A stretch of 64,000 bases of DNA from Thiosulfativibrio zosterae (GTDB lineage Bacteria; Pseudomonadota; Gammaproteobacteria; Thiomicrospirales; Thiomicrospiraceae): the NCBI RefSeq assembly GCF_011398155.1, contig NZ_AP021888.1, positions 1,595,501-1,659,500 on the forward strand, read 5' to 3'. The notes below the pieces were generated by a model. The model saw only the letters and a list, made by a program, of their open reading frames with translations, was not told the origin of the DNA and ran no database searches. The position numbers and the translations under genes are program-made. Below, piece after piece: positions 17,807 through 32,604 of the stretch; the stretch's first letter is position 1; every line of letters begins with the position of its first letter.

Positions 17807-18985
17807 CTAATTTGCCAACCAAGTTGGCAGATGCTGTTTTAAGGTTTTGGTCAGGTTTTGCGGGGTTTGAGTTAAGAGGATTTCAAGGGGCGTTTCAGGG
17901 GGTAAGTGTTCGTGAATACTGTGCAAGGCTTTAAACATGGGCAAATCTTGTAAACTGGCTTCTAGTTTGCCACAAATCGCAACACAAGGCACATGATGGC
18001 GTTGCGCCATCAGTGCAATTTGCGCCGGTAATTTACCATATTGCGTTTGCTCATCTATCTTGCCTTCCGCGGTAAGTACACAATCAATTTTTTGTTCTTC
18101 AAATAAATTTTCCAGCGCCAGTAAATCCGCCAACAGTGTAAAACCTGAGACAAGCTTGGCATCTAAAAAACCCACAAATCCGCCGGCCATCCCACCGGCT
18201 GCGCCAGCACCGGGCAAGTTTCTGACCGATCTTTTAAACCTACGCTCCATCAAGTCCGCAAAGTGTTGCAAGCTGGTTTCTATCATCGAATACAAGGCTG
18301 GGGTCACCCCTTTTTGAGGGCCAAAAACTGCCGTTGCACCCAAGGGCCCTAATAAAGGATTGGTGACATCACAGGCAATCACCCACTCTATACTTTGCAG
18401 CCGTTCAAGGGTTATTTGCCCTTGAGGTTCAAAGCCAATCTTAGATAATTCGCTCAGTCCCTTAGGGCCTGGGCCTATCGACTGATTATGAGAATTGAGC
18501 ATTTGAAAACCCAAGGCCTGTAATGCACCCGCTCCGCCATCGTTGGTGGCACTGCCCCCAAGTCCTAACACAATTTTTTTAGCTCCCATTTCTATCGCTC
18601 TGACCAAAAGCTGGCCTGTGCCATAACTGGAGGCTTTAAGGGGATTGCGTTCATCTTGACTGAGCAAAGGCAAACCTGAAGCCTGAGCCATTTCAACAAT
18701 GGCTGTGCGACTGTCTGGCTGCCATGCAAAGGTTGCCGAAACCGCTTTACCAATGGGGTTTTGCACCTCCAGCGTTACCGATTGAGCCAAGCCCGCATAA
18801 AGCACGGCATCCACAAAACCCTCACCCCCATCCGACATCGGCCGTGACACCACTTGAATTGGCCACCCCATTTTTTTGACGACTTTTTCAACACTTTGGC
18901 AGATGGCAACCGCACTGAGCGACCCCTTAAAAGAATCAGGCGCAACTAAGAGCGTTTTGGGCACTTGGGGGTGGATAGGATTCAT
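17807..18985 (-). CDS. Glycerate 2-kinase (GlxK/GarK family)
   Basis: 392 residues, the usual length. Family motifs: LVAPDSFKGSLSA near residue 12, RPMSDGGEGFVDA, LPLLSQDERNP, and GLGGSATNDGGAGALQALG, the phosphate/nucleotide-binding glycine loop. Later GKIDEQTQYGKLP is diagnostic. It phosphorylates D-glycerate to 2-phosphoglycerate with ATP. It ends at the bidirectional terminator. The four genes above it on the same strand include glucosylglycerate phosphorylase, which releases glycerate, so this kinase probably returns that glycerate to glycolysis. The gap to the peptidase gene upstream is 33 bp. Confidence 0.92.
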   Translation of the reverse strand: MNPIHPQVPKTLLVAPDSFKGSLSAVAICQSVEKVVKKMGWPIQVVSRPMSDGGEGFVDAVLYAGLAQSVTLEVQNPIGKAVSATFAWQPDSRTAIVEMAQASGLPLLSQDERNPLKASSYGTGQLLVRAIEMGAKKIVLGLGGSATNDGGAGALQALGFQMLNSHNQSIGPGPKGLSELSKIGFEPQGQITLERLQSIEWVIACDVTNPLLGPLGATAVFGPQKGVTPALYSMIETSLQHFADLMERRFKRSVRNLPGAGAAGGMAGGFVGFLDAKLVSGFTLLADLLALENLFEEQKIDCVLTAEGKIDEQTQYGKLPAQIALMAQRHHVPCVAICGKLEASLQDLPMFKALHSIHEHLPPETPLEILLTQTPQNLTKTLKQHLPTWLAN

Positions 18986-19018
18986 GTGCTCAATGCCTCC
19001 GTGAATTTGGCCCCTGCC

Positions 19019-20116
19019 TTACTGACTGGCAGGCTTAGGCGCAGTAGGTGTGGGCGCGGTCTTCTTAAAGTTATCGGGTAGTTTTCCTGAGCTTTCAACC
19101 AGCTCATCAATAAAGCGCAGCTTGCCTTTAACGACTTCAGAAATGCTAAATGGGTAAGGGTCCATTAATCCCAAACTGCGATTTAGGGCCGTCATGACTT
19201 GTGCCACTTTACCCCATTCCGCAAACCAATCGTCAAAGTCGTTTTTCTTGGGTTCATAAACACTCAAACCATAACTGACGGCTGTTTCTAAAGTGTCTAC
19301 CATGTGCAAATAATGCGCCCAAGTTTCCGCCCAATCTTCGTGCGGATGACTGCCTGCATAGGGTGTGATAAAACGACTCATCCAACGGTTTTGCAGCCCC
19401 ATATCATAGTATTTTTTGAGTGCTTCACCATAATCGGCGCGTTCATCTCCAAAAACTTGTCTAAAGGCGTCATGTCTGCCTGGAATATCAATTAATCTAC
19501 ACCAAAAATAATGTCCAATTTCATGACGAAAGTGTCCTAATAATGTGCGATATTTTTCGCCCATTTGCTCTTTCATCACATGTAAAAAACCTTCATCGGC
19601 TTCGGCCACATTAATGGTGATTAAGCCTTGATAATGGCCGGATAATACATGTTCAATTTCGGATTTTGGGTTACTGCGTTTATCTTCAAGAAAATCAAAC
19701 TTCAAACCTTTAATCGAATCACCTCCCATGGGAGAAATCAATTTCAAGTCTAACAGTGCGGCCATCATACGGCGCTTAGCCATTTCGAGCAGACGCACGC
19801 GTTTTTTATTTTTTCGTAATTTTAAATCTGGCTCAGTTTGAGTCGTCCGACAGGACAAACAAACACTCGAGCCATCTTCATCAAAACTACTCACGACCCA
19901 GTTGCAAGCTGCTTCTTTGAAGCGATTCTTGCATATTTTCATCACATACTGATTTTTGCCCGAGTTTGAATGAGCATAAAACTGATAACCCTTGCGTAAT
20001 TCGCCACTCCACAAGGTTCTTGCAGAAGGGTCATAAACCAAATCTCTGGCACACTGATTACAGTACAGATTGTTAAAAAATACTTCTTGCCCACATTGAC
20101 AAAAAAAGCGTTTCAT
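19019..20116 (-). CDS. Putative zinc-binding metallopeptidase with N-terminal zinc ribbon
   Basis: 365 residues. The N terminus has zinc-ribbon cysteines (FFCQCGQEVFFNNLYCNQC), then a second CxxC at VCLSCRT. The peptidase motif is HEIGHYFW, with a downstream DERADYG and ETWAHYLH that can supply the third ligand. This matches the Peptidase_Mx-like family commonly encoded beside alpha-E and circularly permuted ATP-grasp proteins, as it is here. A proline-rich tail ends the protein. Substrate unknown. It lies 36 bp downstream of the alpha-E gene. Confidence 0.8.
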   Translation of the reverse strand: MKRFFCQCGQEVFFNNLYCNQCARDLVYDPSARTLWSGELRKGYQFYAHSNSGKNQYVMKICKNRFKEAACNWVVSSFDEDGSSVCLSCRTTQTEPDLKLRKNKKRVRLLEMAKRRMMAALLDLKLISPMGGDSIKGLKFDFLEDKRSNPKSEIEHVLSGHYQGLITINVAEADEGFLHVMKEQMGEKYRTLLGHFRHEIGHYFWCRLIDIPGRHDAFRQVFGDERADYGEALKKYYDMGLQNRWMSRFITPYAGSHPHEDWAETWAHYLHMVDTLETAVSYGLSVYEPKKNDFDDWFAEWGKVAQVMTALNRSLGLMDPYPFSISEVVKGKLRFIDELVESSGKLPDNFKKTAPTPTAPKPASQ

Positions 20117-20152
20117 TCGGGCATTATCCTTGTATTGCTTGCTTAATTAACA

Positions 20153-21097
20153 TTAAGCTGCGAGTTGTTTGGGGTTAAACCATATTTCATAAAATTTATT
20201 ATGTACCGTTGATAACGCCATTTGCAGTTCATCCAAATAGTCGTGTAAAGCAGTTGAACCCACCTCATAAACCGTGTCTTGGTCGATGTGCAAAACCAAA
20301 GCATCCAACTCTTCTTTAAGTTCGCTAGAATTGGGCAACTTGGACACCACCGAGCTGACAAAGTTAATGCAAAAACGCACCGAACGCGCAAACTCTTTGT
20401 CTTTCATTAAAAAGTCAACCACATGCTGGCCGGTGATTTCGGTTTGTACATTTTGACGATACATAAAATATGCACTGACAGATTTTAGCAAATTTGCCCA
20501 TAAAATACTGTCTGAAGGATATTCATCATCCACCACCGTTTCTTGCGACACGAAAAAACCGCCCACATCCAAAATACGCGAAGTCATGTCGGCACGCTCA
20601 ATGGCTGTGCCCAGCATAATGAAACGATAGGTGTTGTTTTGGCTCATGGTGCTGGTCATCATGCCGGTCCAAGACTGGCATCCTTTGATAATTTTGTCGA
20701 GCAAGGCATTGCGTTTACTGCGCGATTCAAAATCTTCTTTATTTTCTTTGACCATTAAATAAAGTTCGTTGATATGCACCCAAGCCTCTCTGGGTAAAAT
20801 ATCGCGTGTCGTGCGCATATTTTCACGCGCCCACCACAAAGAAGACAATAAAGAGGTACTGTTGTCACGATCACTGAGTAACATGCTCATGCAATTTTTT
20901 TCGGTTTTGGCTTCATAATGTGTGTCAAAAAACACCTCGTTACTGGTGATTTGCACCAAGGTATACCAGTTCAATTTGACCGCCTTAGGCAAGTCAAACA
21001 TCAACTGCGAAAACACTTTTGCTAAACGCGCCGTATTTTCAACGCGCTCAATGTAACGCGCTGACCAATATAATCTTTCTGCCACTTTAGAGAGCAT
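20153..21097 (-). CDS. Alpha-E domain protein
   Basis: About 314 residues from ATG 21097, chosen because AAGGGG lies upstream and the family begins MLSKVAERLYWSARYIERVENTARL. All-helical alpha-E (DUF403) protein, with REAWVHINELY and IERADMTSRILDVG as further family marks. Alpha-E proteins are nearly always paired with a circularly permuted ATP-grasp enzyme and are thought to act with it in making a peptide or amide product. The start overlaps the ATP-grasp stop by 11 bp, implying coupled translation. Confidence 0.85.
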   Translation of the reverse strand: MLSKVAERLYWSARYIERVENTARLAKVFSQLMFDLPKAVKLNWYTLVQITSNEVFFDTHYEAKTEKNCMSMLLSDRDNSTSLLSSLWWARENMRTTRDILPREAWVHINELYLMVKENKEDFESRSKRNALLDKIIKGCQSWTGMMTSTMSQNNTYRFIMLGTAIERADMTSRILDVGGFFVSQETVVDDEYPSDSILWANLLKSVSAYFMYRQNVQTEITGQHVVDFLMKDKEFARSVRFCINFVSSVVSKLPNSSELKEELDALVLHIDQDTVYEVGSTALHDYLDELQMALSTVHNKFYEIWFNPKQLAA

Positions 21098-22559
21098 GTT
21101 GTTCCCCTTCTGATCTTTCTGTTTTGACAATCCAAGTATCTTTACTGCCACCGCCTTGCGATGAATTAACCACCAAACTGCCTTTACGCAAAGCCACACG
21201 CGTCAAGCCGCCAGCGGTGACATAGGTTTTAGCGCCTTGCAAAATAAAGGGTCTTAAATCGACATGACGAGGGTCAAGTTCATCGTCACAGACGGTAGGC
21301 ACAGTGGATAGATTAAGCGTAGGTTGTGCGATGTAATTGCGTGGATTTTCTTGAATAAGACCTTTAAAGGTTTCTAATTCTTCTTCAGAGGCATGAGGAC
21401 CAATCAACAAACCATAACCGCCTGACTCGTTAGCGGGTTTCACCACCAACTCAGCCAAATGCTCTAACACATAAGCTCTGTCTTTAGGGTTACTGCACAA
21501 ATAGGTGGGTACATTCGGCACCAATGGCTCTTCATTTAAGTAAAAACGAATCATATCAGGCACATAGGCATAAACCACCTTATCGTCCGCCACTCCACAA
21601 CCGGGCGCATTGGCAATGGCCACATTGCCTGATTTCCAGGCGCGCATTAAACCTGGCACACCTAGAGTTGAATCTTCTCGAAACACTTCAGGGTCCATAA
21701 AAGCATCATCAATTCTGCGGTAAATGACATCCACTTTTTTCAACCCATCGATGTTACGCATATAAACACAATCGTCACCCAATACCACCAAATCACTACC
21801 TTCTACCAATTCAGCACCCATTTCGTGTGCCAAATAAGCGTGCTCGTAATAAGCCGAGTTATAAACGCCCGGTGTGAGAACAACAACTTCAGGAATTGGG
21901 TCGTCATTTGGTGATAAAGAACGCAACATAGACAGCAAGTTGGTGGGATATTGGTCAACCGGCATAATGTTCATGTCGTGAAAAACTTCTGGCATGACTT
22001 GTTTCATTACCGCACGGTTTTCTAACATATAGGAAACCCCTGAAGGCACGCGCAGATTGTCTTCTAAGACATACATAACACCATCTGCGCCTCGCACTAA
22101 GTCAGTTCCGCAAATACAAGCCCAAGAACCATGCTTGAGTTTCATGCCCACACACTCTGGACGATAGTCTTTAGACGAGGTAATCACATCTAGCGGCATA
22201 ATGCCTGCCTTAAAAATCTTTTGCTCGTTATACACATCTTCAATAAAGTGATTCAGTGCGCGCAAACGCTGTGTTAAGCCTTTAGAGGTTTGACTCCACT
22301 CTTTAACATCGATGGCTCTTGGGAAAACATCAAACGGCCACAGACGGTCAATATTGCCTTTGTCGCTGTAAACCGTAAAAGAAATCCCAAACTGCGCAAT
22401 AGTCGTATTGGCGTTCTTTTGCAATTCTTTAAAGTCTTTCGACTCTAGTTTGCTCATGTAGTCAAATAATTGTTCAGAAGCCAATCTTGGCTTGCCGTCT
22501 GCTTGAACCGATTCATCATAGATCCCTTCGGTGGGGTAATCTGCTAAAAGATGCGCCAT
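21087..22559 (-). CDS. Circularly permuted ATP-grasp protein
   Basis: About 490 residues from ATG 22559 (MAHLLADYPTEGIYDE). Family marks include FGISFTVYSDKGNIDRLWPFD, YVLEDNLRVPSGVSYMLENR, VVVLGDDCVYMRNIDGLKKVDVIYRRIDD and LVVKPANESGGYGLLIG (the ATP-binding lysine and glycine region). Predicted carboxylate-amine ligase; the product is unknown. The set of this gene with alpha-E and a zinc peptidase is widespread. Here it follows glucosylglycerate phosphorylase by 63 bp on the same strand, so the sets may share a transcript. Confidence 0.85.
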   Translation of the reverse strand: MAHLLADYPTEGIYDESVQADGKPRLASEQLFDYMSKLESKDFKELQKNANTTIAQFGISFTVYSDKGNIDRLWPFDVFPRAIDVKEWSQTSKGLTQRLRALNHFIEDVYNEQKIFKAGIMPLDVITSSKDYRPECVGMKLKHGSWACICGTDLVRGADGVMYVLEDNLRVPSGVSYMLENRAVMKQVMPEVFHDMNIMPVDQYPTNLLSMLRSLSPNDDPIPEVVVLTPGVYNSAYYEHAYLAHEMGAELVEGSDLVVLGDDCVYMRNIDGLKKVDVIYRRIDDAFMDPEVFREDSTLGVPGLMRAWKSGNVAIANAPGCGVADDKVVYAYVPDMIRFYLNEEPLVPNVPTYLCSNPKDRAYVLEHLAELVVKPANESGGYGLLIGPHASEEELETFKGLIQENPRNYIAQPTLNLSTVPTVCDDELDPRHVDLRPFILQGAKTYVTAGGLTRVALRKGSLVVNSSQGGGSKDTWIVKTERSEGEQHAL

Positions 22560-22622
22560 ACTTATTCTCTGCTTTGAAAAATAAAATTGTGAAATGTTTA
22601 AAAATATCAAAAACGGTTGTTG

Positions 22623-24392
22623 TTAATCAGTCATGGGTGCCCATAAGGCAGACACCCCATCAACGCTTTCTGGCATTAGCCATAAAGATTGATAAGGTTG
22701 TACCACCAGCTTTTCTTCGGCACTGCTGACACCCTGGTTGTCTAATAAATTAATCCAATAACTGAATCGTTCAATGCCGACGATTTGAGCAATATTGAGC
22801 AATTTAATATCCGGCGTTAAATTGTGAATTGTCAGCAACGGAAACCGTAAATTGGGACCATCACGCCACAAGGCAAAAAAATCTGCCCCCAAATCCAATA
22901 CCTGTTGCGGTGTATCTGGGTGGAATGCCAAATGTTTTTTGCGTCTTTGTAATATATTAATCAGTCTTTTCAGAACTTCAGCATTCGATGTTCGGCCACT
23001 TTCAATTAAAGCCTGCAAGTAATCATAATCCCAACGACGGCGATTAATCGATCGGGTGCGCCCAGTTTTTTCAACACCCTCTTTATCATTAGGCGTAGCG
23101 ATTAAACTGTGAATATAAAATGCGGGTATGCCTTGTAAAGACATCATAATCGTTTGTGAACAAATAAATCGTTCTACTTGCCATTGATCCGGTCCATTTG
23201 AGCTATGAGTTTCTCTAAAGGCGCTGAATAATGCAATATTTAATTCATAAGGGCTTTCTGTGCCATCGGGATTTGCCTTCATAGACACAAATCCACCCAA
23301 GCGATGCATACTGGTGACCAAATCCTCAATTTCTCGGGGCGGTAAAATGCCTTCTACTGGTCGCACCCCTATCCCATCATGCGAGGCGGTAAAGTTTAAA
23401 AAACTGCACCCTGGTGGTGGTGGGGCTAATTTAAGTGCCCAATCGGTTAAGTATTGTCCATCCCCACGATGTAATGCATGCAAAATTAACGGCGCTAAAG
23501 CAAATTGATACACCATATGTGCTTCATCTTGTTCGCCAAAATACGACAAATTTTCTTTGTGCGGCACATTGGTTTCGGTCAATAAAATGGTATTAGGATT
23601 TACCAATTCCATCACATCGCGAATCAGCTTAACCACTTCGTGAGTTTGCGGCAAGTGAATACAAGTGGTGCCCAATGTTTTCCATAAAAAAGCAATTGCA
23701 TCCAAACGGATGGTTTTGACACCTTTCTGCAGATAGAGCACCAAAACTTCTAGCATTTTGAGCAGCACTTGCGGATTTTTAAAGTTTAAATCTATCTGGT
23801 CTGCACTGAAAGTTGCCCACACCATTTTTCGACCACGATGGGTATAAGCCGGCACTAACAAAGGCGTATTACGGGGGCGCGTGACTTGAGAAACATCTTC
23901 GTCACCTTCCATTTCAATAAAAAACTCGTTATAGGGCGCCAAATTGGCTTTGTAATCCGTAAACCACAAACTTTCACGCGAGATGTGGTTAATAACCAAG
24001 TCAAACATGAGCTTGTAGTCTTGCCCTATGGACTCTATGTCTGGCCAATCGCCCAAATCTGGATTGACTTGGGTAAAATCAATCACCGAAAACCCATCAT
24101 CTGAACTATAAGGGAAAAATGGCAAAATATGCACATTATTGATGGCATTTTTAATGTATTTGTCTAAGAAATCTTTTAGGGTTTCGAGCGGTTTTTGACC
24201 TTCTTGTAAAAAAGTATCTCCGTAGGTAATCAGCATAACATCTTCATGTGACCACTTCGATTGTCGATGCATATTTTGCGCTATTTTTGGCAATAAAAAA
24301 CCCACTAGGTCAGTATAAACCCGAACGCCATCGCCCTTACCATAAATAGTGATTAATCGAGATTTTATTTGTTCAAATAGCGCATCATTCAT
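22623..24392 (-). CDS. GH13 subfamily 18 phosphorylase, probably glucosylglycerate phosphorylase
   Basis: 589 residues. GH13_18 sucrose-phosphorylase-like fold: HILPFFPYSSDDGFSVIDF near the N terminus, DLVINH (region I), KTIRLDAIAFLWK with the nucleophile Asp (region II), LLTETNVPH with the acid/base Glu (region III) and ASHDGIG (region IV, HD). Family members split sucrose, glucosylglycerol or glucosylglycerate with phosphate. The neighbours gpgS and the phosphoglycerate-type phosphatase make glucosylglycerate, so glucosylglycerate phosphorylase (giving glucose 1-phosphate and glycerate) is the best call. The glycerate kinase downstream supports it. Confidence 0.82.
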   Translation of the reverse strand: MNDALFEQIKSRLITIYGKGDGVRVYTDLVGFLLPKIAQNMHRQSKWSHEDVMLITYGDTFLQEGQKPLETLKDFLDKYIKNAINNVHILPFFPYSSDDGFSVIDFTQVNPDLGDWPDIESIGQDYKLMFDLVINHISRESLWFTDYKANLAPYNEFFIEMEGDEDVSQVTRPRNTPLLVPAYTHRGRKMVWATFSADQIDLNFKNPQVLLKMLEVLVLYLQKGVKTIRLDAIAFLWKTLGTTCIHLPQTHEVVKLIRDVMELVNPNTILLTETNVPHKENLSYFGEQDEAHMVYQFALAPLILHALHRGDGQYLTDWALKLAPPPPGCSFLNFTASHDGIGVRPVEGILPPREIEDLVTSMHRLGGFVSMKANPDGTESPYELNIALFSAFRETHSSNGPDQWQVERFICSQTIMMSLQGIPAFYIHSLIATPNDKEGVEKTGRTRSINRRRWDYDYLQALIESGRTSNAEVLKRLINILQRRKKHLAFHPDTPQQVLDLGADFFALWRDGPNLRFPLLTIHNLTPDIKLLNIAQIVGIERFSYWINLLDNQGVSSAEEKLVVQPYQSLWLMPESVDGVSALWAPMTD

Positions 24393-24447
24393 CGTTCTTT
24401 CCTACACTTTTAGGCGGCTTACAACCTGTCTAAAATTGAGCGGGCTT

Positions 24448-25662
24448 TTAAGGCTGATTATCCAACTCTACCGCTTCTTGGATTTGAGCCAAAATGTCTG
24501 GACAAGCACTGACCACTCGATTCCAATTCGCCATAAATGGAATCTCCCCTGGGTTATCCATAAAATCTTGACCCGCTTCTAAAATGTTTTGAGCAAACAA
24601 TTCAATCACCTGCTCCTCGGCGTGCAAATCCAACTTTAAGCCATTCATCTCCGCATCAAACGCATAAGACTCTAGTTGATCCAATGCGGTACGATAATAT
24701 TGCGCTCTAATGGTTCTTAAGGTTGCTGGCGAAAACTCATGCCCGCGCACCGCTAACTTGCGATACAAGGACTTCGCGATGTCTTGGCTCATACGCGACA
24801 GGCCGGCTTGTTTGTTGTCAAACGACACATCTTGGTGTTTGTGGTCATACACATCAGCAATATCCACTTGGCAAACTCGGCGATTAGAGTAGTTACGCAA
24901 AACCTCAGACATCACGCCTATTTCAAGCCCCCAATCCGAGGGGATGCGAATGTCTTGTAAACACTGCACATCCATCGCAAATTCACCGGCTAAGGGGTAA
25001 CGAAAACTGTCTAAATAACTCAAGAGCGTATCTTGCCCAACCACCCCTTTCAAAGCGCGCAATAAGGGTGTCACCAATAATCTTGAGGCCCTACCATTCA
25101 GTTTGCCATCGGCATAACGCGGATAAAAACCCTTGGCAAACACAAAATTAAAAGTGGGATGTGCCACCGGATAAATCAACCGTGCCAATAAACTGCGGTC
25201 ATAGGTAATCACATCACAATCGTGTAAGGCCACCGCTTCGACTTTGTCTGAAGCCAATAAATAGCCAAAACAATTCCAAACATTACTGCCTTTGCCGCGC
25301 TCCTTTGGCGCTAAATCCATTTCTCTCAGTTTTTCAGTAATGGCCTGCATTCTAGGCCCATCATTCCAAATAATTTTGAAGTCTTGCGGAAGGCCCGAGA
25401 AATACTCTTTGGCATAAGCAAACTGTTTGGCATCTGCTCTATCAAGCCCTATCACGATTTGCGTGAGATAAGGCACTTTTTTGAGCTCTTCAACAATATT
25501 GGCCAAAGCTGGCGCTTCTAACTCACTGAATAACGAGGGTAAAATTAAACCCAACGGCTTTTTTTGACCAAATTTAATTAACTCTTTTTCTAACTCTTCA
25601 ACGGGTCTATCCGTAATATTATGAAAAGTTGTAACATTGCCATTTTGAAAAAAATCACTCAT
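24448..25662 (-). CDS. gpgS: Glucosyl-3-phosphoglycerate synthase
   Basis: 404 residues, GT81 family. It transfers glucose from an NDP-glucose donor to 3-phosphoglycerate. Marks: LILPSLFSELEAPAL near residue 38, GKGSNVWNCFGYLL, the metal-binding ALHDCDVITYD (DxD), GEFAMDVQ and SDWGLEIGVMSE. The C-terminal His in DVYDHKHQ is a known metal ligand position. First step of glucosylglycerate synthesis, a compatible solute made under salt stress or nitrogen limitation. The phosphatase gene lies immediately upstream (63-bp gap) and the phosphorylase 55 bp downstream. Confidence 0.9.
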   Translation of the reverse strand: MSDFFQNGNVTTFHNITDRPVEELEKELIKFGQKKPLGLILPSLFSELEAPALANIVEELKKVPYLTQIVIGLDRADAKQFAYAKEYFSGLPQDFKIIWNDGPRMQAITEKLREMDLAPKERGKGSNVWNCFGYLLASDKVEAVALHDCDVITYDRSLLARLIYPVAHPTFNFVFAKGFYPRYADGKLNGRASRLLVTPLLRALKGVVGQDTLLSYLDSFRYPLAGEFAMDVQCLQDIRIPSDWGLEIGVMSEVLRNYSNRRVCQVDIADVYDHKHQDVSFDNKQAGLSRMSQDIAKSLYRKLAVRGHEFSPATLRTIRAQYYRTALDQLESYAFDAEMNGLKLDLHAEEQVIELFAQNILEAGQDFMDNPGEIPFMANWNRVVSACPDILAQIQEAVELDNQP

Positions 25663-25725
25663 TTACTCCCCCTTGAGTTTGCGTCTTGATGGTTTCAGGT
25701 GATTCACCAATTTAAAAAAAATAAA

Positions 25726-26517
25726 TTAACCTGCCTTGGCGTTAGCAGAAAATAATAAGGATTCAACCGCATTCACCCAGCCCATAGGCGCGGGATCTGA
25801 AGCATAGATGGCATTAGACACTTCTAACACACGACCACTCGCATTGGGTAAAACCACTGCAAAATCGGCATAATTAAGCATAGATAAGTCATTTTCACTG
25901 TCACCCAAAGCAATGGTTTGACAATGCTGACCACATGAAAAGTATTCTTTATTGACTAAAAAGTGCATTGCATCAGCTTTATCGTGATTACCCATCACAT
26001 GATAAAAGCGCCCGCCTTGCTTTAACACCAAATGTTCCGCCGCTAAAGCCTGCTTAAACAATTCTAAGTTTTCGGGCGAATCTTGCCATAAAATCGGCTC
26101 GGTCACTTCTCGCTCCATCGCCAGCACAGCATCATTAGAATGTAGACCGGTGTGCCCCATCACTTCTGAAACCGTCCAGTCCCCAAAACCTTCAAACTGC
26201 CAATGATAATGCTTACGCAAATGTTTGATATAAGAACGAATTTCAGCGTAGGGCTGACCAATGAGAATTTTATTTACACCAGTGCCTGTATTATTAAGCA
26301 CTTGCAAAACACCACCATTTTCGGCAATTAGAGGTAAAGGAAGTGATAATTTAGACTGCCAAGCCTCAAGCTCAGCTAGGGTTTTGCTAGAATTTAAAAT
26401 AACAGGAATATTGGCCGCTTTTAAGCGCGCCAAAATTGGACAGACTGCAGCGTAATCATAAGTATGATGATTTAACAAGGTTCCATCTAAATCGGTAAAT
26501 ATAATTAACTTGGACAT
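25726..26517 (-). CDS. gpgP: Glucosyl/mannosyl-3-phosphoglycerate phosphatase (HAD)
   Basis: 263 residues, HAD IIB type. Motif I FTDLDGTLLN, motif II NSSKTLAE, GRFYHVMGNHDKADA (Lys, motif III) and ALGDSENDLSML (motif IV). SLPLIAENGG is shared with mannosyl-3-phosphoglycerate phosphatases. Next to gpgS it should remove phosphate from glucosyl-3-phosphoglycerate to give glucosylglycerate. It is the first gene of the minus-strand run that continues to the glycerate kinase. Confidence 0.85.
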   Translation of the reverse strand: MSKLIIFTDLDGTLLNHHTYDYAAVCPILARLKAANIPVILNSSKTLAELEAWQSKLSLPLPLIAENGGVLQVLNNTGTGVNKILIGQPYAEIRSYIKHLRKHYHWQFEGFGDWTVSEVMGHTGLHSNDAVLAMEREVTEPILWQDSPENLELFKQALAAEHLVLKQGGRFYHVMGNHDKADAMHFLVNKEYFSCGQHCQTIALGDSENDLSMLNYADFAVVLPNASGRVLEVSNAIYASDPAPMGWVNAVESLLFSANAKAG

Positions 26518-26650
26518 CTTTGCGCACCAACCTTATAAACTACATAAGGCTTTTAAAGCTAAAGATAAACCAATAACTATATTTACATTACATTCATAAG
26601 GTTATTGACATTAGTTAAACTTTTTCAGCATTTAAAATGCAAAAATTGCA

Positions 26651-26680
26651 CCAAATTTAACCAGGCCTGGTTAAATTTGG
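26651..26680 (-). terminator. Perfect 30-bp palindrome downstream of the MFS gene
   Basis: Bases 26651-26680 are a perfect inverted repeat centred on CCAGGCCTGG (26661-26670) with AAATTT arms, followed on the minus strand by TGCAATTTTT. It lies 42 bp beyond the MFS stop and probably ends that transcript. Copy 4 of the dispersed palindrome. Confidence 0.75.
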
Positions 26681-26722
26681 ATGCTTTTTAAACAAAATAA
26701 ACTCGCAATTTCAAGTAATCGT

Positions 26723-27985
26723 TTAATCACTATTTGGGCGTTTTTCTTGAACCCAATCATCATCTTGCCGCGGATCCATTTCAGCTAACATCTGTGCAGA
26801 CGCTGCCGGAATAGCCACATATATATTTAAGTTTTCATCAGGAATTCGCTCATTCATCAGAGCATAGCCGCCCAACATTAAAGCAAAGCCTGTTAATACG
26901 ACAAAAAAGAAATCCACCGAAAACCCTAAAACAAACCCCAATAATAAGGGCGCAAAAAAGGACCCTACGCCATAAGAAAACAACAGGCTACGACTGATTT
27001 CTATGATGTCTCTGTTTTCATCAAAAACATCATTGGCTCTTGCGACACTTAAAGGGTAAATACTAAATAAACTCATGCCCAATAAGAATCCTAAACCATA
27101 CAAAATGACCAAACTATCGTGCCAGATTTGCGGTAAAAACAACATAAGCAGTAATACACCCGCACTAAAAAAGCCTGCCCAAGCCAAGAGTCTTCTGCGG
27201 CCAAAACGATCGGATAAAATCCCAACGGGCAATTGAGCAACCAGACCGCCTAAAATGGTCAAAGCCATAAAAACCGAAACCACATTCGTTTGCTCAAACA
27301 CCCCTAAAATATACAGTGGCATCATAGTGTAAAAAGAGCCTACAAACACCCCGCCTATAAAACTGCCCACTAAAGCCAACGGTGCAATCGATAGCAACTT
27401 AGGCATACTGTAGCGTTCAAAAGGCTTTAAAACAGGCTGAATCACTCGAGTGATGGCCACTAACACCAAAGACCAAAGCACCAAAATAGAACCTAAAATA
27501 AAAATCGTGTTAGAAGACATTGCAAACATTAATAGCAATTGTCCCAAAGCCAATGCCAAGAAAAACACTATGGTGTAAATGGCTAAAATTTTGCCACGAT
27601 CTTCTGTTGCACTTTTTTCATTCAGCCAGCTTTCTAACACGATGAGCATAGAATAAAACGCAAAACCCGAAAACAATCTGAGAACACCCCAAAACCAGGG
27701 ATCAAACCAGAGTGCGTGACCCAAAAAAGTGATGACCATAATGGCCGAAAACGCGGAAAAACTTCGGGCATGCCCGACCGTCACAATGAGTTTTTGACTG
27801 AAAACGGCCGACAACATCGCCCCTAGAAAAAAGGCGGCATTGATTAAACCTATCACACCCGAACTGAGGCCTTCCTGCTTTAAGAATACGCCAATAAAAG
27901 TCATTAACAATCCATAACCCGTGGCCAGTAACGCGATTGAAAAAAACAAAGAAGAAATAGGCAGCAAAGCCCTTTTAAAAAACAA
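26723..27985 (-). CDS. MFS transporter, YcaD-like
   Basis: About 420 residues with twelve hydrophobic segments and the MFS loop signature LSDRFGRRRLLAW between helices 6-7 or 8-9. The N terminus ALLPISSLFFSIALLATGYGLLMTF resembles the YcaD/MFS_1 subgroup of unknown substrate. TTG 27985 is chosen because GGAG stands six bases upstream; TTG 27997 would add four residues and overlap that site. A 36-residue membrane peptide gene lies 29 bp upstream on the same strand and the two are probably co-transcribed. Confidence 0.75.
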   Translation of the reverse strand: MFFKRALLPISSLFFSIALLATGYGLLMTFIGVFLKQEGLSSGVIGLINAAFFLGAMLSAVFSQKLIVTVGHARSFSAFSAIMVITFLGHALWFDPWFWGVLRLFSGFAFYSMLIVLESWLNEKSATEDRGKILAIYTIVFFLALALGQLLLMFAMSSNTIFILGSILVLWSLVLVAITRVIQPVLKPFERYSMPKLLSIAPLALVGSFIGGVFVGSFYTMMPLYILGVFEQTNVVSVFMALTILGGLVAQLPVGILSDRFGRRRLLAWAGFFSAGVLLLMLFLPQIWHDSLVILYGLGFLLGMSLFSIYPLSVARANDVFDENRDIIEISRSLLFSYGVGSFFAPLLLGFVLGFSVDFFFVVLTGFALMLGGYALMNERIPDENLNIYVAIPAASAQMLAEMDPRQDDDWVQEKRPNSD

Positions 27986-28014
27986 ATGACACTCCAAACT
28001 TTATACAAAACACT

Positions 28015-28125
28015 CTAATTCAGTGGCTTATTCACAAATAACTTTTTTAATTTAAACATAGGCACAAGCCAGATAAAAGCAGTTATTGAAATGCCTAAAA
28101 TCTTCATAAACGCCGAATACGCCAT
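28015..28125 (-). CDS. 36-residue single-helix membrane peptide
   Basis: ATG 28125 has a near-perfect ribosome-binding site, GGAGGC, five bases upstream. The translation is MAYSAFMKILGISITAFIWL, then VPMFKLKKLFVNKPLN and a TAG stop at 28015-28017. It predicts one transmembrane helix with a basic C-terminal tail. It lies directly upstream of the MFS gene in the same direction. No family known to me; it could be a small partner of the transporter or a leader peptide. Confidence 0.55.
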   Translation of the reverse strand: MAYSAFMKILGISITAFIWLVPMFKLKKLFVNKPLN

Positions 28126-28266
28126 TTAAAGCCTCCATTTTTTTTGAATCCCTGAAAACTTTTTACCTGACATTTTTATTCTCAACCGAGGCAACTTTAT
28201 AATCTGCGGCATGAGCTAATGGCTGCAAAAAAACCATAACTTTCCAGACCTACCGCTCATAATCCG

Positions 28267-28272
28267 TATAAT
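28267..28272 (+). promoter_or_regulatory. Possible -10 element for the symporter gene
   Basis: TATAAT at 28267-28272, 46 bp before the symporter start. No good -35 at 16-18 bp; the nearest, TTCCAG, is 19 bp away. Weak call. Confidence 0.25.
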
Positions 28273-28317
28273 GAAAATCCATTGTTAAATTTTTTAATTA
28301 AAATTATGGGTTAGTTT

Positions 28318-29715
28318 TTGTTAGTTATTACATTTTTAAGTTTTTTAATTCTCTTTTTATTCATAGGGTTAGCCTCCTACTTTTCTAGCCAGAAAACCAC
28401 CGAAGACTATCTTCTTGCTGGCCGCTCAATCTCTCCTGCCCTGGTCGGTTTATCTGCAATAGCCACGAATAACAGTGGCTTTATGTTTATTGGCATGATT
28501 GGCATGACCTATACATCAGGGCTTTCAGCCATTTGGCTTGCCCTAGGCTGGATTCTGGGCGATTTTATTGCCAACTTTATTGCCGTTAAAAAAATACAAA
28601 TCATCGGTCATCAAAAAAATATTCAATCTTATGGCGAACTTTTGGCAAGTTGGCAAGGCAAAAACTTTAAGAAAATTAGAGTGCTTGCCGGGTTTTTAAC
28701 CCTTATTTTTCTGGTTGTTTACGCGGCAGCACAGCTAAAAGCTGGTAGTAAAGCAACGGAAACTATGCTGGATTGGTCGGCTTCAAGTGGCATAGTCATC
28801 AGTGCAATGATTATTTTGGCCTATAGTTTTGTCGGCGGACTTAGAGCCTCTATTTGGACAGATGTTGCCCAATCTATTGTGATGATATCTGGCATGTTAT
28901 TGCTACTTTGGGTTGGCACCCATCATTTTGGTGGCATAACCAACACCCTTGCAAAGCTACAACTCGTTTCTGAAACTTACATGAATTGGTTTTCAGGCAC
29001 CTATTTTGAATGGCTATTATTCTTTTCTGGCTGGGTCTTTGGAGGCTTAGGCGTTTTGGGGCAACCTCATATTGTTATTCGGTTCATGACTTTAGATAAG
29101 GTTGAAAATGTTAATAAAATGCGACTTTATTATTATTTTTGGTTTTTAATTGCTTTCTTAGCCACGATTGGCGTTGGGCTATTAACCCGCCTAGCAATTC
29201 CCGAATCTGCAGGTTTTGATGCCGAACTGGCGCTTCCAACTATGGCCAATCAACTCTTGCCAGAGTTTTTGGTCGGCATGGTTTTAGCCGCCATGTTTGC
29301 TGCAACCATGTCAACGGCTGACTCTTTAATTTTGGCGTGCTCCGCTGCCATCACCAAAGATTTATTACCGCATAAAAAGTTCAATCTCATCACAACCAAA
29401 CTGATTACATTATCAATCTTAGTCTGCGCTACACTCATGGCATTAAGCAATAATGATACGGTTTTCACCTTGGTTTTATACGCTTGGGGAATATTAAGTT
29501 CGGCTTTTGTGCCGTTAATTTTAATCTACGCCTTCAACAAACCCATTACCGAAAAACTTGCCTTAATGATGATCATATCAGGCCCAATCGGCTATTTGTT
29601 TTGGAAACACTCAGACAATTCAGCCCTGATTTATGCCGTAGCTTTAGGGGTTATGAGTGGATTATTGGTTTATTTTATCGGGCAATTTCAAATAAAACGC
29701 ATCAAACATGACTGA
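28318..29715 (+). CDS. Sodium:solute symporter (SSS family, PutP-like)
   Basis: 465 residues, all helical membrane segments. SSS marks: TTEDYLLAGRSISPALVGLSAIATNNSGF near residue 28, GGLRASIWTDVAQ, GGLGVLGQPHIVIRFM (the PutP GGLGQPHI box) and MFAATMSTADSLILACSAAITKDL with sodium-site serines and threonines. It imports a solute with sodium. Proline or a compatible solute is likely because ectABC lies 0.7 kb downstream on the same strand, but that is inference. A TAG lies in frame just before, so TTG 28318 is the first possible start. It overlaps the next gene by 8 bp. Confidence 0.85.
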   Translation: MLVITFLSFLILFLFIGLASYFSSQKTTEDYLLAGRSISPALVGLSAIATNNSGFMFIGMIGMTYTSGLSAIWLALGWILGDFIANFIAVKKIQIIGHQKNIQSYGELLASWQGKNFKKIRVLAGFLTLIFLVVYAAAQLKAGSKATETMLDWSASSGIVISAMIILAYSFVGGLRASIWTDVAQSIVMISGMLLLLWVGTHHFGGITNTLAKLQLVSETYMNWFSGTYFEWLLFFSGWVFGGLGVLGQPHIVIRFMTLDKVENVNKMRLYYYFWFLIAFLATIGVGLLTRLAIPESAGFDAELALPTMANQLLPEFLVGMVLAAMFAATMSTADSLILACSAAITKDLLPHKKFNLITTKLITLSILVCATLMALSNNDTVFTLVLYAWGILSSAFVPLILIYAFNKPITEKLALMMIISGPIGYLFWKHSDNSALIYAVALGVMSGLLVYFIGQFQIKRIKHD

Positions 29716-30289
29716 GATTACGACCCTTGAAAACCTAACAGCCTTATTTCCACAACCTAAGCCCTTGGTTTTAGATAAGGTGGTACAAAAGTTAGACCCT
29801 CACACGCGGCATTTTTTAAGCCTGTGTTCAATGGCTGTCTATAGCACCATTAACCCTCAAGGTCATGTTGATACATCGCCAAGAGGTGGGAAAGCTGGAT
29901 TTATAAAGGTTTTGAATGATTCAACCTTATTACTCCCCGAATATGCGGGGAATCATCGCCTCGATACCTTAAAAAACATCCTTCTCTCAAGTGATCAAGA
30001 AATGGGCATTTTATGTTTCGCACCTGGCATCGAAGAAACTTTACGCCTAAAAGGGACTGCCAAAATATTCGACAAAACGGATAATGAAGCACTTTTTTGT
30101 CATTTTGATACTCAGCCAAAAATCGTTATTCAATTTCAGCTCCACACCTTATATTTTCAATGTTCATCGGCACTTAAGCTTGCTCAATTATGGCGCAAAT
30201 CGCCCTATATTAAGGCAAAGGAGTGGCCCAGCATTTACAAAATAATTAACGACCAAATAATTTACAATTTACAAAATAAAGATAAATAA
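29708..30289 (+). CDS. FMN-binding split-barrel protein, pyridoxamine 5'-phosphate oxidase family
   Basis: 193 residues. A split-barrel flavin-fold pattern: AVYSTINPQGHVDTSPRGGKAGFIKVLNDSTLLLPEYAGNHRLDTLKN, which matches the MSMEG_1061-like branch of PPOX proteins (DxSPRGG...PD..GN.R.D...N). The reaction is unknown. Its start lies 8 bp inside the symporter gene, so the two are translationally linked. It ends 22 bp before the ectA promoter -35 box. Confidence 0.75.
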   Translation: MTEITTLENLTALFPQPKPLVLDKVVQKLDPHTRHFLSLCSMAVYSTINPQGHVDTSPRGGKAGFIKVLNDSTLLLPEYAGNHRLDTLKNILLSSDQEMGILCFAPGIEETLRLKGTAKIFDKTDNEALFCHFDTQPKIVIQFQLHTLYFQCSSALKLAQLWRKSPYIKAKEWPSIYKIINDQIIYNLQNKDK

Positions 30290-30311
30290 GTTTAATATTC
30301 ATAATCTTAAC

Positions 30312-30339
30312 TTGATATTTTAGAATAAATACTTATAAT
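30312..30339 (+). promoter_or_regulatory. Strong sigma-70-type promoter of ectABC
   Basis: TTGATA (30312-30317), 16-bp spacer, TATAAT (30334-30339, perfect -10). Transcription would start near 30346, leaving a leader of only about 27 nt before the AAAGG site and the proposed ectA start at 30373. Confidence 0.7.
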
Positions 30340-30372
30340 TAGCTCGCTTTACAACGCTTTAAAGGTTTTACA

Positions 30373-30912
30373 ATTACATTCTCACAGACAAACAATGTTG
30401 TTTTTTCTGCACCAGAATTATCTGATGGACTTGCGATTTACCACCTAGTGAAATCCTGCCCACCCTTAGATTTAAATTCGTCTTACTTGTATTTTTTACA
30501 AGCCAGCCACTTTGCAGATACTTGTATTCTTGCCAAACAAAACAATAAAATTGTAGGCTTTATTTCTGCCTATATTCGTCCCGATGAAGCCAATAATCTT
30601 TTTATTTGGCAAGTTGCAGTTGCTGAAGAAATGCGCGGCCAAGGTTTAGCGAAACAACTGCTCAATCATTTGATAATGCGCCCACACTTAGCAAACATTG
30701 ACACCATCACTACCACTATCAGTCCGTCAAATTTATCGTCTCAAGCTGTTTTTAGAAAAATGGCTCAACATTTTAACTGTGACATCACTGTTACCTCTTT
30801 TCTTGATTCAAGTATTTTTGGTCAAGACACTCATGAAGCTGAAGACTTATATACCCTCAAGTCTGCACAAGCAACGCCACTTATTAAATGCTTACAAAGC
30901 CAAAAGGATTAA
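30373..30912 (+). CDS. ectA: L-2,4-diaminobutyrate acetyltransferase EctA, probable non-canonical ATT start
   Basis: GNAT acetyltransferase, second step of ectoine synthesis. Core motifs: LVKSCPPLDLNSSYLYFLQ, HFADTCILA, and the acetyl-CoA loop VAVAEEMRGQGLAKQLL. The first ATG/GTG/TTG in frame is GTG 30448, but homology to EctA continues upstream of it in frame (FSAPELSDGLAIYHLV, like F.AP...DG..I..L). That extended frame holds no canonical start. ATT 30373 has AAAGG seven bases upstream and sits 27 nt after the predicted transcript start, giving 179 residues, a normal EctA length. Either ATT is used or there is a sequence error. The 30448-30912 core is certain. Confidence 0.85.
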   Translation: MTFSQTNNVVFSAPELSDGLAIYHLVKSCPPLDLNSSYLYFLQASHFADTCILAKQNNKIVGFISAYIRPDEANNLFIWQVAVAEEMRGQGLAKQLLNHLIMRPHLANIDTITTTISPSNLSSQAVFRKMAQHFNCDITVTSFLDSSIFGQDTHEAEDLYTLKSAQATPLIKCLQSQKD

Positions 30913-30916
30913 CCAC

Positions 30917-32173
30917 ATGCCTCTATCTATTTTTGACCAATATGAATCAGAAGTGCGCGGATATATTCGCTCATTCCCAACCATTTTTAGCCGAGCAAAA
31001 GGCGCTGAAATCTGGGATGAACAAGGTAAACGCTACATAGACTTTTTTGCCGGTGCTGGCGCTTTAAACTACGGCCACAACAACCCACTGATTAATGAAG
31101 CCATGATTGAACATCTTCAAAATGATGGTGTGCAACATGCACTAGACATGGGAACAACTGCTAAAAAAGACTTTATGCAAACCTTTGTAGACAACATTTT
31201 AATTCCTAGAAAACTAGACTACAAACTGCAATTTGTTGGACCAACAGGCACAAATGCTGTTGAAACTGCTTTAAAAATAGCTCGAAAAGTTAAAAAGCGT
31301 AAACAAGTGATAAGTTTTACCAATGGCTTTCATGGCATGTCAATGGGGGCTTTAAGTGTGACAGGCAATCGTTATTATCATGATGATAACTATGGTGTTC
31401 CTGCCTACACCACTCAAGTGCCTTTCCATAAATATATGGGGGCTGAAGTCAACACCATGGCGTATCTGCGAAAAATTTTAGACGATGCGTCTTCAGGACA
31501 AGATTTGCCGGCGGCCATTATTTTAGAAACCATTCAAGCCGAAGGTGGTATTAATGTTGCCTCGAATGAATGGCTTCAGGAATTACGCGCCATTTGCGAC
31601 GATTTTGATATTTTGTTGATTGTTGACGATATTCAAACAGGCAATGGACGCTCTGGGGACTTTTTCAGTTTTGAGCGCTCAGGTATTACGCCAGACATAG
31701 TTACCCTTTCTAAGTCAATCGGTGCTGGACAACCCATGTCACTGCTACTTATGAAAAGAGAATTAGATCAATGGCTACCCGGCGAACATTCTGGAACTTT
31801 TCGCGGTAATAACCTTGCCTTTGTTGCGTCAGAAAAAGCCATATCTACCTATTGGAAAGATGCTGCATTTTCGGATGAAATTAAGAAAAAATCACGCTTA
31901 GTCGAACAACAAATGCAAACCATTAAAAACACTTACCCTGAACTGGTCAAAGAGGTTCGCGGATACGGCATGATTTGGGGAGTTGAGTTTAAAGACCCAG
32001 AATTGGTATCTCATATTTGCTCTAAGTCATTTGAACTTGGGCTTGTCATAGAAACAGCCGGTTCAGAAGGTCAAGTCATCAAATTTTTAGGCCCTCTAAT
32101 CATCTCTGAAGACTTAATTAATGAAGGCTATGAGATTTTAAATCAAGCCATTCAAGAATCAATTGCGGCTTAA
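30917..32173 (+). CDS. ectB: Diaminobutyrate--2-oxoglutarate transaminase EctB
   Basis: About 418 residues from ATG 30917, which has AAAGGA overlapping the ectA end. A class III aminotransferase making L-2,4-diaminobutyrate from aspartate semialdehyde, the first ectoine step. Marks: MPLSIFDQYESEVRGYIRSFP at the start, typical of EctB, then FVGPTGTNAVETALKIARK, TNGFHGMSMGALSVTGN, LIVDDIQTGNGRSG (PLP aspartate) and VTLSKSIGAGQPMS (PLP lysine). A longer reading frame runs upstream to 30698 inside ectA but is not used. Confidence 0.95.
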   Translation: MPLSIFDQYESEVRGYIRSFPTIFSRAKGAEIWDEQGKRYIDFFAGAGALNYGHNNPLINEAMIEHLQNDGVQHALDMGTTAKKDFMQTFVDNILIPRKLDYKLQFVGPTGTNAVETALKIARKVKKRKQVISFTNGFHGMSMGALSVTGNRYYHDDNYGVPAYTTQVPFHKYMGAEVNTMAYLRKILDDASSGQDLPAAIILETIQAEGGINVASNEWLQELRAICDDFDILLIVDDIQTGNGRSGDFFSFERSGITPDIVTLSKSIGAGQPMSLLLMKRELDQWLPGEHSGTFRGNNLAFVASEKAISTYWKDAAFSDEIKKKSRLVEQQMQTIKNTYPELVKEVRGYGMIWGVEFKDPELVSHICSKSFELGLVIETAGSEGQVIKFLGPLIISEDLINEGYEILNQAIQESIAA

Positions 32174-32202
32174 AACTCCCTAAAATTTGCAAAGGAAATT
32201 TC

Positions 32203-32604
32203 ATGATTGTTAGAAACTTATATGATGACATTATAGGGTCAGAGTCAGATGTTGATACCCAACAATGGAACAGCAGACGACTTTTGCTGGCCAAAGATGG
32301 CATGGGATTTTCATTGCATGACACCATTATTAAAAAGGGTGAAGACCTACACCTTTGGTATAAACACCACTTTGAGGCGGTTTATTGCATAGAAGGTGAA
32401 GGACAAATTTTAGAAAAAAAAGATGGCAAAGTGCACGATATTCGACCTGGAACGGTTTATGCCCTCAACGAAAATGATGCTCATATTCTCAGTGCCAATA
32501 AGGGCTGTGATATGCGCATGGTTTGCGTATTTAACCCGCCTGTTACCGGTCAAGAAGTTCATGATAAAGATGGGGCTTATGCGCCACATCCTGAAGCGGA
32601 CTAA
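32203..32604 (+). CDS. ectC: L-ectoine synthase EctC
   Basis: 133 residues, the usual length. A cupin that cyclises N-gamma-acetyldiaminobutyrate to ectoine. Marks: MIVRNLYDDIIGSESDV, WNSRRLLLAKDGMGFSLHDT, HHFEAVYCIEGEGQI and VYALNENDAHIL, with the cupin metal residues Glu, Tyr and His. AAAGGAAATTTC precedes ATG 32203. No ectD hydroxylase or ectR follows, so the product is ectoine rather than hydroxyectoine unless ectD is elsewhere. Confidence 0.95.
   Translation: MIVRNLYDDIIGSESDVDTQQWNSRRLLLAKDGMGFSLHDTIIKKGEDLHLWYKHHFEAVYCIEGEGQILEKKDGKVHDIRPGTVYALNENDAHILSANKGCDMRMVCVFNPPVTGQEVHDKDGAYAPHPEAD

Follow-up and report, generated by a model that had tools for sequence, protein, structure and literature searches.

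The ectoine gene ectA, encoding diaminobutyrate acetyltransferase, probably begins with an ATT codon at 30373–30375 of the window, the whole 64-kb stretch of DNA that was analysed. The reading that we favour, judged from the sequence, is that ATG was changed to ATT in this lineage in a working gene, and that the full-length EctA is produced by weak initiation at AUU. The gene lies on the plus strand, as do all of the features of this operon given below, and extends from 30373 to 30912, with 179 residues counted from the ATT. In the profile search, its product matched TIGR02406 with 180.2 bits, as compared with the curated cut-off of 120.6.

The open frame spans 30343–30912 and is preceded by an in-frame TAG at 30340–30342. 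Direct reading of 30343–30447 found no ATG, GTG or TTG, as had been claimed in the sequence-only reading, and the first canonical in-frame codon is the GTG at 30448–30450 (residue 26). Before this GTG, just two codons are one base from ATG, namely ATT 30373 and ATT 30436, so that between the upstream stop and 30436 there is no near-cognate codon other than ATT 30373. The sequence-only reading also held that EctA homology continues for 25 codons upstream of the GTG. The homology was found, but not over that length: the profile match starts 15 codons upstream of the GTG (30403), in the family alignment the frame is supported as far as about 30391 (19 codons upstream), and 25 codons is the distance to the ATT. 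Above about 30391, the N-termini are variable in every relative, and therefore homology narrows the start no further than to the interval of 22 to 43 codons before the conserved CPPLD motif. The residues at −22 to −19 from this motif (NNVV) agree with the family more closely than do 99.5% of random draws. In addition, the DNA aligns without gaps to that of the nearest homologue (AAC AAT GTT GTT TTT in the window versus AAC AAT TTA GTT TTC), and AAC AAT ... GTT ... CCA is common to both. These results indicate that the translated region covers about 30391 onward, upstream of which the frame offers no near-cognate codon but ATT 30373. The full conserved protein can be reached from no canonical start, and the AUU stands at the orthologous position behind a properly spaced Shine-Dalgarno (SD) sequence of ordinary strength. 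The proposal that ectA starts at ATT 30373 is supported by this analysis, because no other candidate agrees at once with position, frame, SD sequence and promoter.

The ectA starts of 47 distinct relatives (29 and 12 of the family and six others, after removal of duplicates between collections) were compared, using the CPPLD motif as the anchor. The relatives were found by sequence, and those named were Hydrogenovibrio, Thiomicrorhabdus and Thiomicrospira. This comparison, which had been proposed as a check, revealed a canonical start in all 47: 46 have ATG, placed −22 to −43 from CPPLD, and one, from a MAG, has TTG at −38. ATT 30373 is located at −28, where it aligns with the initiator Met of several relatives; its next codon is Thr, and several relatives likewise begin with Met-Thr. 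None of the 47 shares the ATT start, and the conservation of a near-cognate codon that is true of infC was not found for ectA among them. The lack of ATT in the relatives therefore counts against an old regulatory device, but not against AUU initiation, for which it is expected if the change is recent. A separate observation concerns the MAG, that of Thiomicrorhabdus sp. NP51 (L036:522, the same as L011): an ACG replaces the ATG of the closely similar T. arctica ectA, with the TTG directly upstream. This is a second start-codon change in ectA within the same family.

The signals in front of the ATT were as described in the sequence-only reading. A near-perfect sigma-70-type promoter, TTGATA-16-TATAAT, is located at 30312–30339 (TTGATA at 30312–30317 and TATAAT at 30334–30339, separated by 16 nt) and matches the consensus at 11 of 12 positions. 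Over both strands, the window has just one other site that scores at least 11/12. Transcription would be expected to start at about 30346, leaving a leader of 27 nt ahead of ATT 30373. The SD-like AAAGG at 30361–30365 is likewise in place, 7 nt before the ATT. Its duplex with the 16S tail was calculated as −3.8 kcal/mol, a value equalled or exceeded at 19% of random positions. The site is better than those of 27 of 34 relatives' ectA genes (median, −1.75) and weaker than those of about 79% of the 29 ATG genes in the window. The SD sequence is thus compatible with an ATT start, but not compelling. No mRNA structure that would hide or present the ectA start was detected, as no fold exceeded those of shuffled sequences.

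The gene appears to be intact. EctA keeps 39 of 41 near-invariant positions, a proportion within the range of the relatives (93–100%), and its divergence relative to EctB showed no excess when compared with other genomes. Because of these two properties, ectA is, as far as its sequence tells, functional or was so until very recently, and the possibility of a pseudogene was rejected. No second copy of ectA exists in the genome, which consists of one contig of 2,645,427 bases. An AlphaFold model of EctA (pLDDT 85.8, pTM 0.83) has the GNAT fold and resembles the solved EctA structures 6SJY, 6SK1 and 3D3S chain A with TM scores of 0.80–0.83; beta1 comprises residues 10–12 and alpha1 residues 16–28. 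Intact ectB and ectC adjoin the gene. ectB (30917–32173) has its own ATG and AAAAGGA and is mostly 69–78% identical to ectB of family relatives, and ectC, encoding ectoine synthase (32203–32604), matched NF009806 with 191.6 bits. In gene order, family membership and enzyme fold, this ectABC is like the known ectoine operon, and only the start codon differs. The operon is the last part of an osmolyte gene neighbourhood at 17807–32604, which also contains genes for glycerate kinase, a sucrose-phosphorylase-like GH13 protein, a GpgS-like synthase, a mannosyl-3-phosphoglycerate-phosphatase-like protein, an MFS transporter, a PutP-like symporter and a PPOX flavoprotein. This gene neighbourhood suggests that glucosylglycerate may be made and recycled beside ectoine.

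From these observations, expression of the ATT-started gene would proceed as follows. The ancestral ATG, 28 codons before CPPLD, would have changed to ATT in this lineage. RNA polymerase would begin near 30346 from the strong sigma-70 promoter, the 30S subunit would bind AAAGG, and the initiator tRNA would start at AUU 30373, at a rate presumably lowered by IF3 discrimination against AUU. IF3 destabilises initiation complexes on codons except AUG, GUG and UUG (PMC5472188). In a reporter in S. aureus, AUU gave about 10% of the initiation of AUG, and the figure for AUU and AUA sites of S. aureus in poor medium is likewise about 10% of AUG (PMC13009471). The product would be the full-length EctA beginning Met-Thr-Phe, and its synthesis may be weak yet sufficient, aided by the strong promoter. 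EctB and EctC would initiate separately, each from its own ATG, and because of this independence EctA is probably made in smaller amounts than either. The analysis shows the identity, intactness, frame and position of the gene, the lack of a canonical start, the matches to promoter and SD sequence and the ATC of infC; we infer that initiation occurs at AUU, that its rate is low, that IF3 acts on it and that the base has been read correctly.

The genome contains an internal control for near-cognate initiation. Its infC, near C1:892,234, starts with ATC after GGAGG, and the same arrangement was found in each of the 30 family relatives that were sampled. No canonical in-frame start of infC fits both the usual N-terminus and the SD sequence. 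In some of them, a TTG or CTG occurs a few codons higher, but it is upstream of or at the SD sequence, and therefore ATC is the consistent infC start. With its conserved N-terminus, lack of a suitable canonical start and near-cognate codon in place, infC serves, by the same kind of reading, as a positive control. Judged by this ATC, this genome translates from near-cognate codons. The duplex of the infC SD sequence was −10.2 kcal/mol, as compared with −3.8 kcal/mol for ectA. As an observation on the family, the IF3 gene has a clade-wide AUC start in this genome and the 30 sampled relatives.

The sequence-only reading was right to weigh the ATT start against a one-base error. The latter is the alternative to be taken most seriously, although we consider it improbable: base 30375 would reflect an error of sequencing or assembly, or a mutation that arose in the culture used for sequencing, and the organism itself would carry an ordinary ectA with ATG at 30373. 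This explanation agrees with the canonical start in every relative and with the ordinary SD sequence, in which no adaptation to a weak start is seen; moreover, ATT ACA is one base from Met-Thr, a frequent start in the family. Such switches are also rare: among ancestral AUG starts in related prokaryotes, 1 of 61,358 switched to AUU (PMC5622118), and this very low prior rate counts against the ATT start. The genus is represented by a single genome, on which the base at 30375 rests; when a further sequence from this species was sought, the scan of viral contigs gave no relative and that of genome contigs gave none closer than 58%. On the other hand, the genome is a single contig with a completeness of 100 and a contamination of 0.18, and the site is outside any homopolymer. 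Five pairs of overlapping ORFs in the window were checked for disruption; they belong to distinct families, matched over most of each profile, and showed no sign of a frameshift. In a finished genome, it would be unlikely for a wrong base to fall precisely on a start codon. An ATG-to-AUU switch is probably the likelier event here, by an estimated factor of about ten or more for a polished assembly.

If the ATT is real and translated, it could have been selected: the strong promoter and the IF3-repressed start would together place the translational limit on ectoine synthesis at EctA. The only point in its favour here is that a strong promoter is paired with a weak start. Near-cognate starts with a known regulatory role have strong, extended SD sequences (PMC13009471), and that of ectA is ordinary; we regard selection as unlikely. 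Slightly less credible is a real ATT with a silent or nearly silent ectA, in which a recent loss of the start is tolerated through a second osmolyte pathway or import. Glucosylglycerate-type genes are present within 8 kb (GpgS-like, 24448–25662; phosphatase, 25726–26517), together with the PutP-like symporter, and the ordinary SD sequence would also agree with silence. Reduced ectoine synthesis could indeed be tolerable with such genes nearby. However, ectA, ectB and ectC are without decay, the strong promoter is retained, and AUU normally keeps some initiation.

The remaining two explanations place the start elsewhere. If the T6 run at 30401–30406 were short by one T, the extra base would bring ATG 30395 into frame as the true start (MLFFSAP...). 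Long-read assemblies suffer more often from indels than from substitutions, and Thiomicrospira-type EctA starts as late as −22. We consider this very unlikely, as the DNA through the run aligns without gaps to the nearest homologue, Asn-Asn and Val-Val suit the family better than Met and Leu-Phe, and ATG 30395 lacks an SD sequence (−0.3 kcal/mol). The least probable start, hardly to be entertained, is GTG 30448: it is the first canonical start and overlaps by TAGTG the stop of a 17-codon out-of-frame ATG ORF (30395–30448), to which it might be coupled, but the resulting 154-residue EctA would lack beta1 and most of alpha1 (10 of 13 residues) with the invariant P14, D18, G19 and L25, no SD sequence is present at either the GTG or the ORF start, and no relative starts at that place. 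The ORF was also rejected as a coupled leader; the AACAAT that precedes it corresponds by homology to the in-frame Asn-Asn codons of the relatives, and it is probably a chance feature.

Returning to the weakly initiated ATT start, it is rare, yet it belongs to a known kind of near-cognate starts. The infC gene, which uses AUU or AUC in E. coli and others and AUC here, resembles ectA in having a near-cognate start with an SD sequence, subject to IF3 discrimination. In infC, however, the codon is conserved across the clade, the SD sequence is GGAGG and the product regulates its own synthesis, whereas ectA has an ATT in one lineage, AAAGG and a metabolic enzyme as its product. E. coli pcnB is closer in that AUU occurs at a chromosomal gene other than infC and limits its expression (Binns and Masters 2002, as cited in PMC13009471); the start of pcnB was shown experimentally, whereas that of ectA is deduced. 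A pcnB match is present on the minus strand of this genome. The S. aureus genes cvfC1 (AUU) and ccpN (AUA) also have non-canonical starts that lower expression to about 10% of that of AUG in poor medium, but their starts are conserved between species and have extended SD sequences (PMC13009471), neither of which applies to ectA. Streptomyces sigR, with GTC, is like ectA as read here: it opens an operon, its start is non-canonical and repressed by IF3, and its partner is produced in excess. In contrast to ectA, sigR encodes a sigma factor and has a AGGAGGTG SD sequence and direct protein evidence (PMC5472188).

Few genes with natural AUU starts are known beyond infC, and AUU-started genes are annotated with truncated N-termini, as gene finders normally ignore such codons. 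If a case in a metabolic operon were verified, it would demonstrate that ordinary enzymes can tolerate, or make use of, weak initiation at near-cognate codons, and ectA would supply a simple reporter of IF3 discrimination beyond the usual model organisms. If the AUU was selected, osmolyte output in this organism would be tied to the ratio of free IF3 to ribosomes through EctA, with EctB and EctC not so limited.
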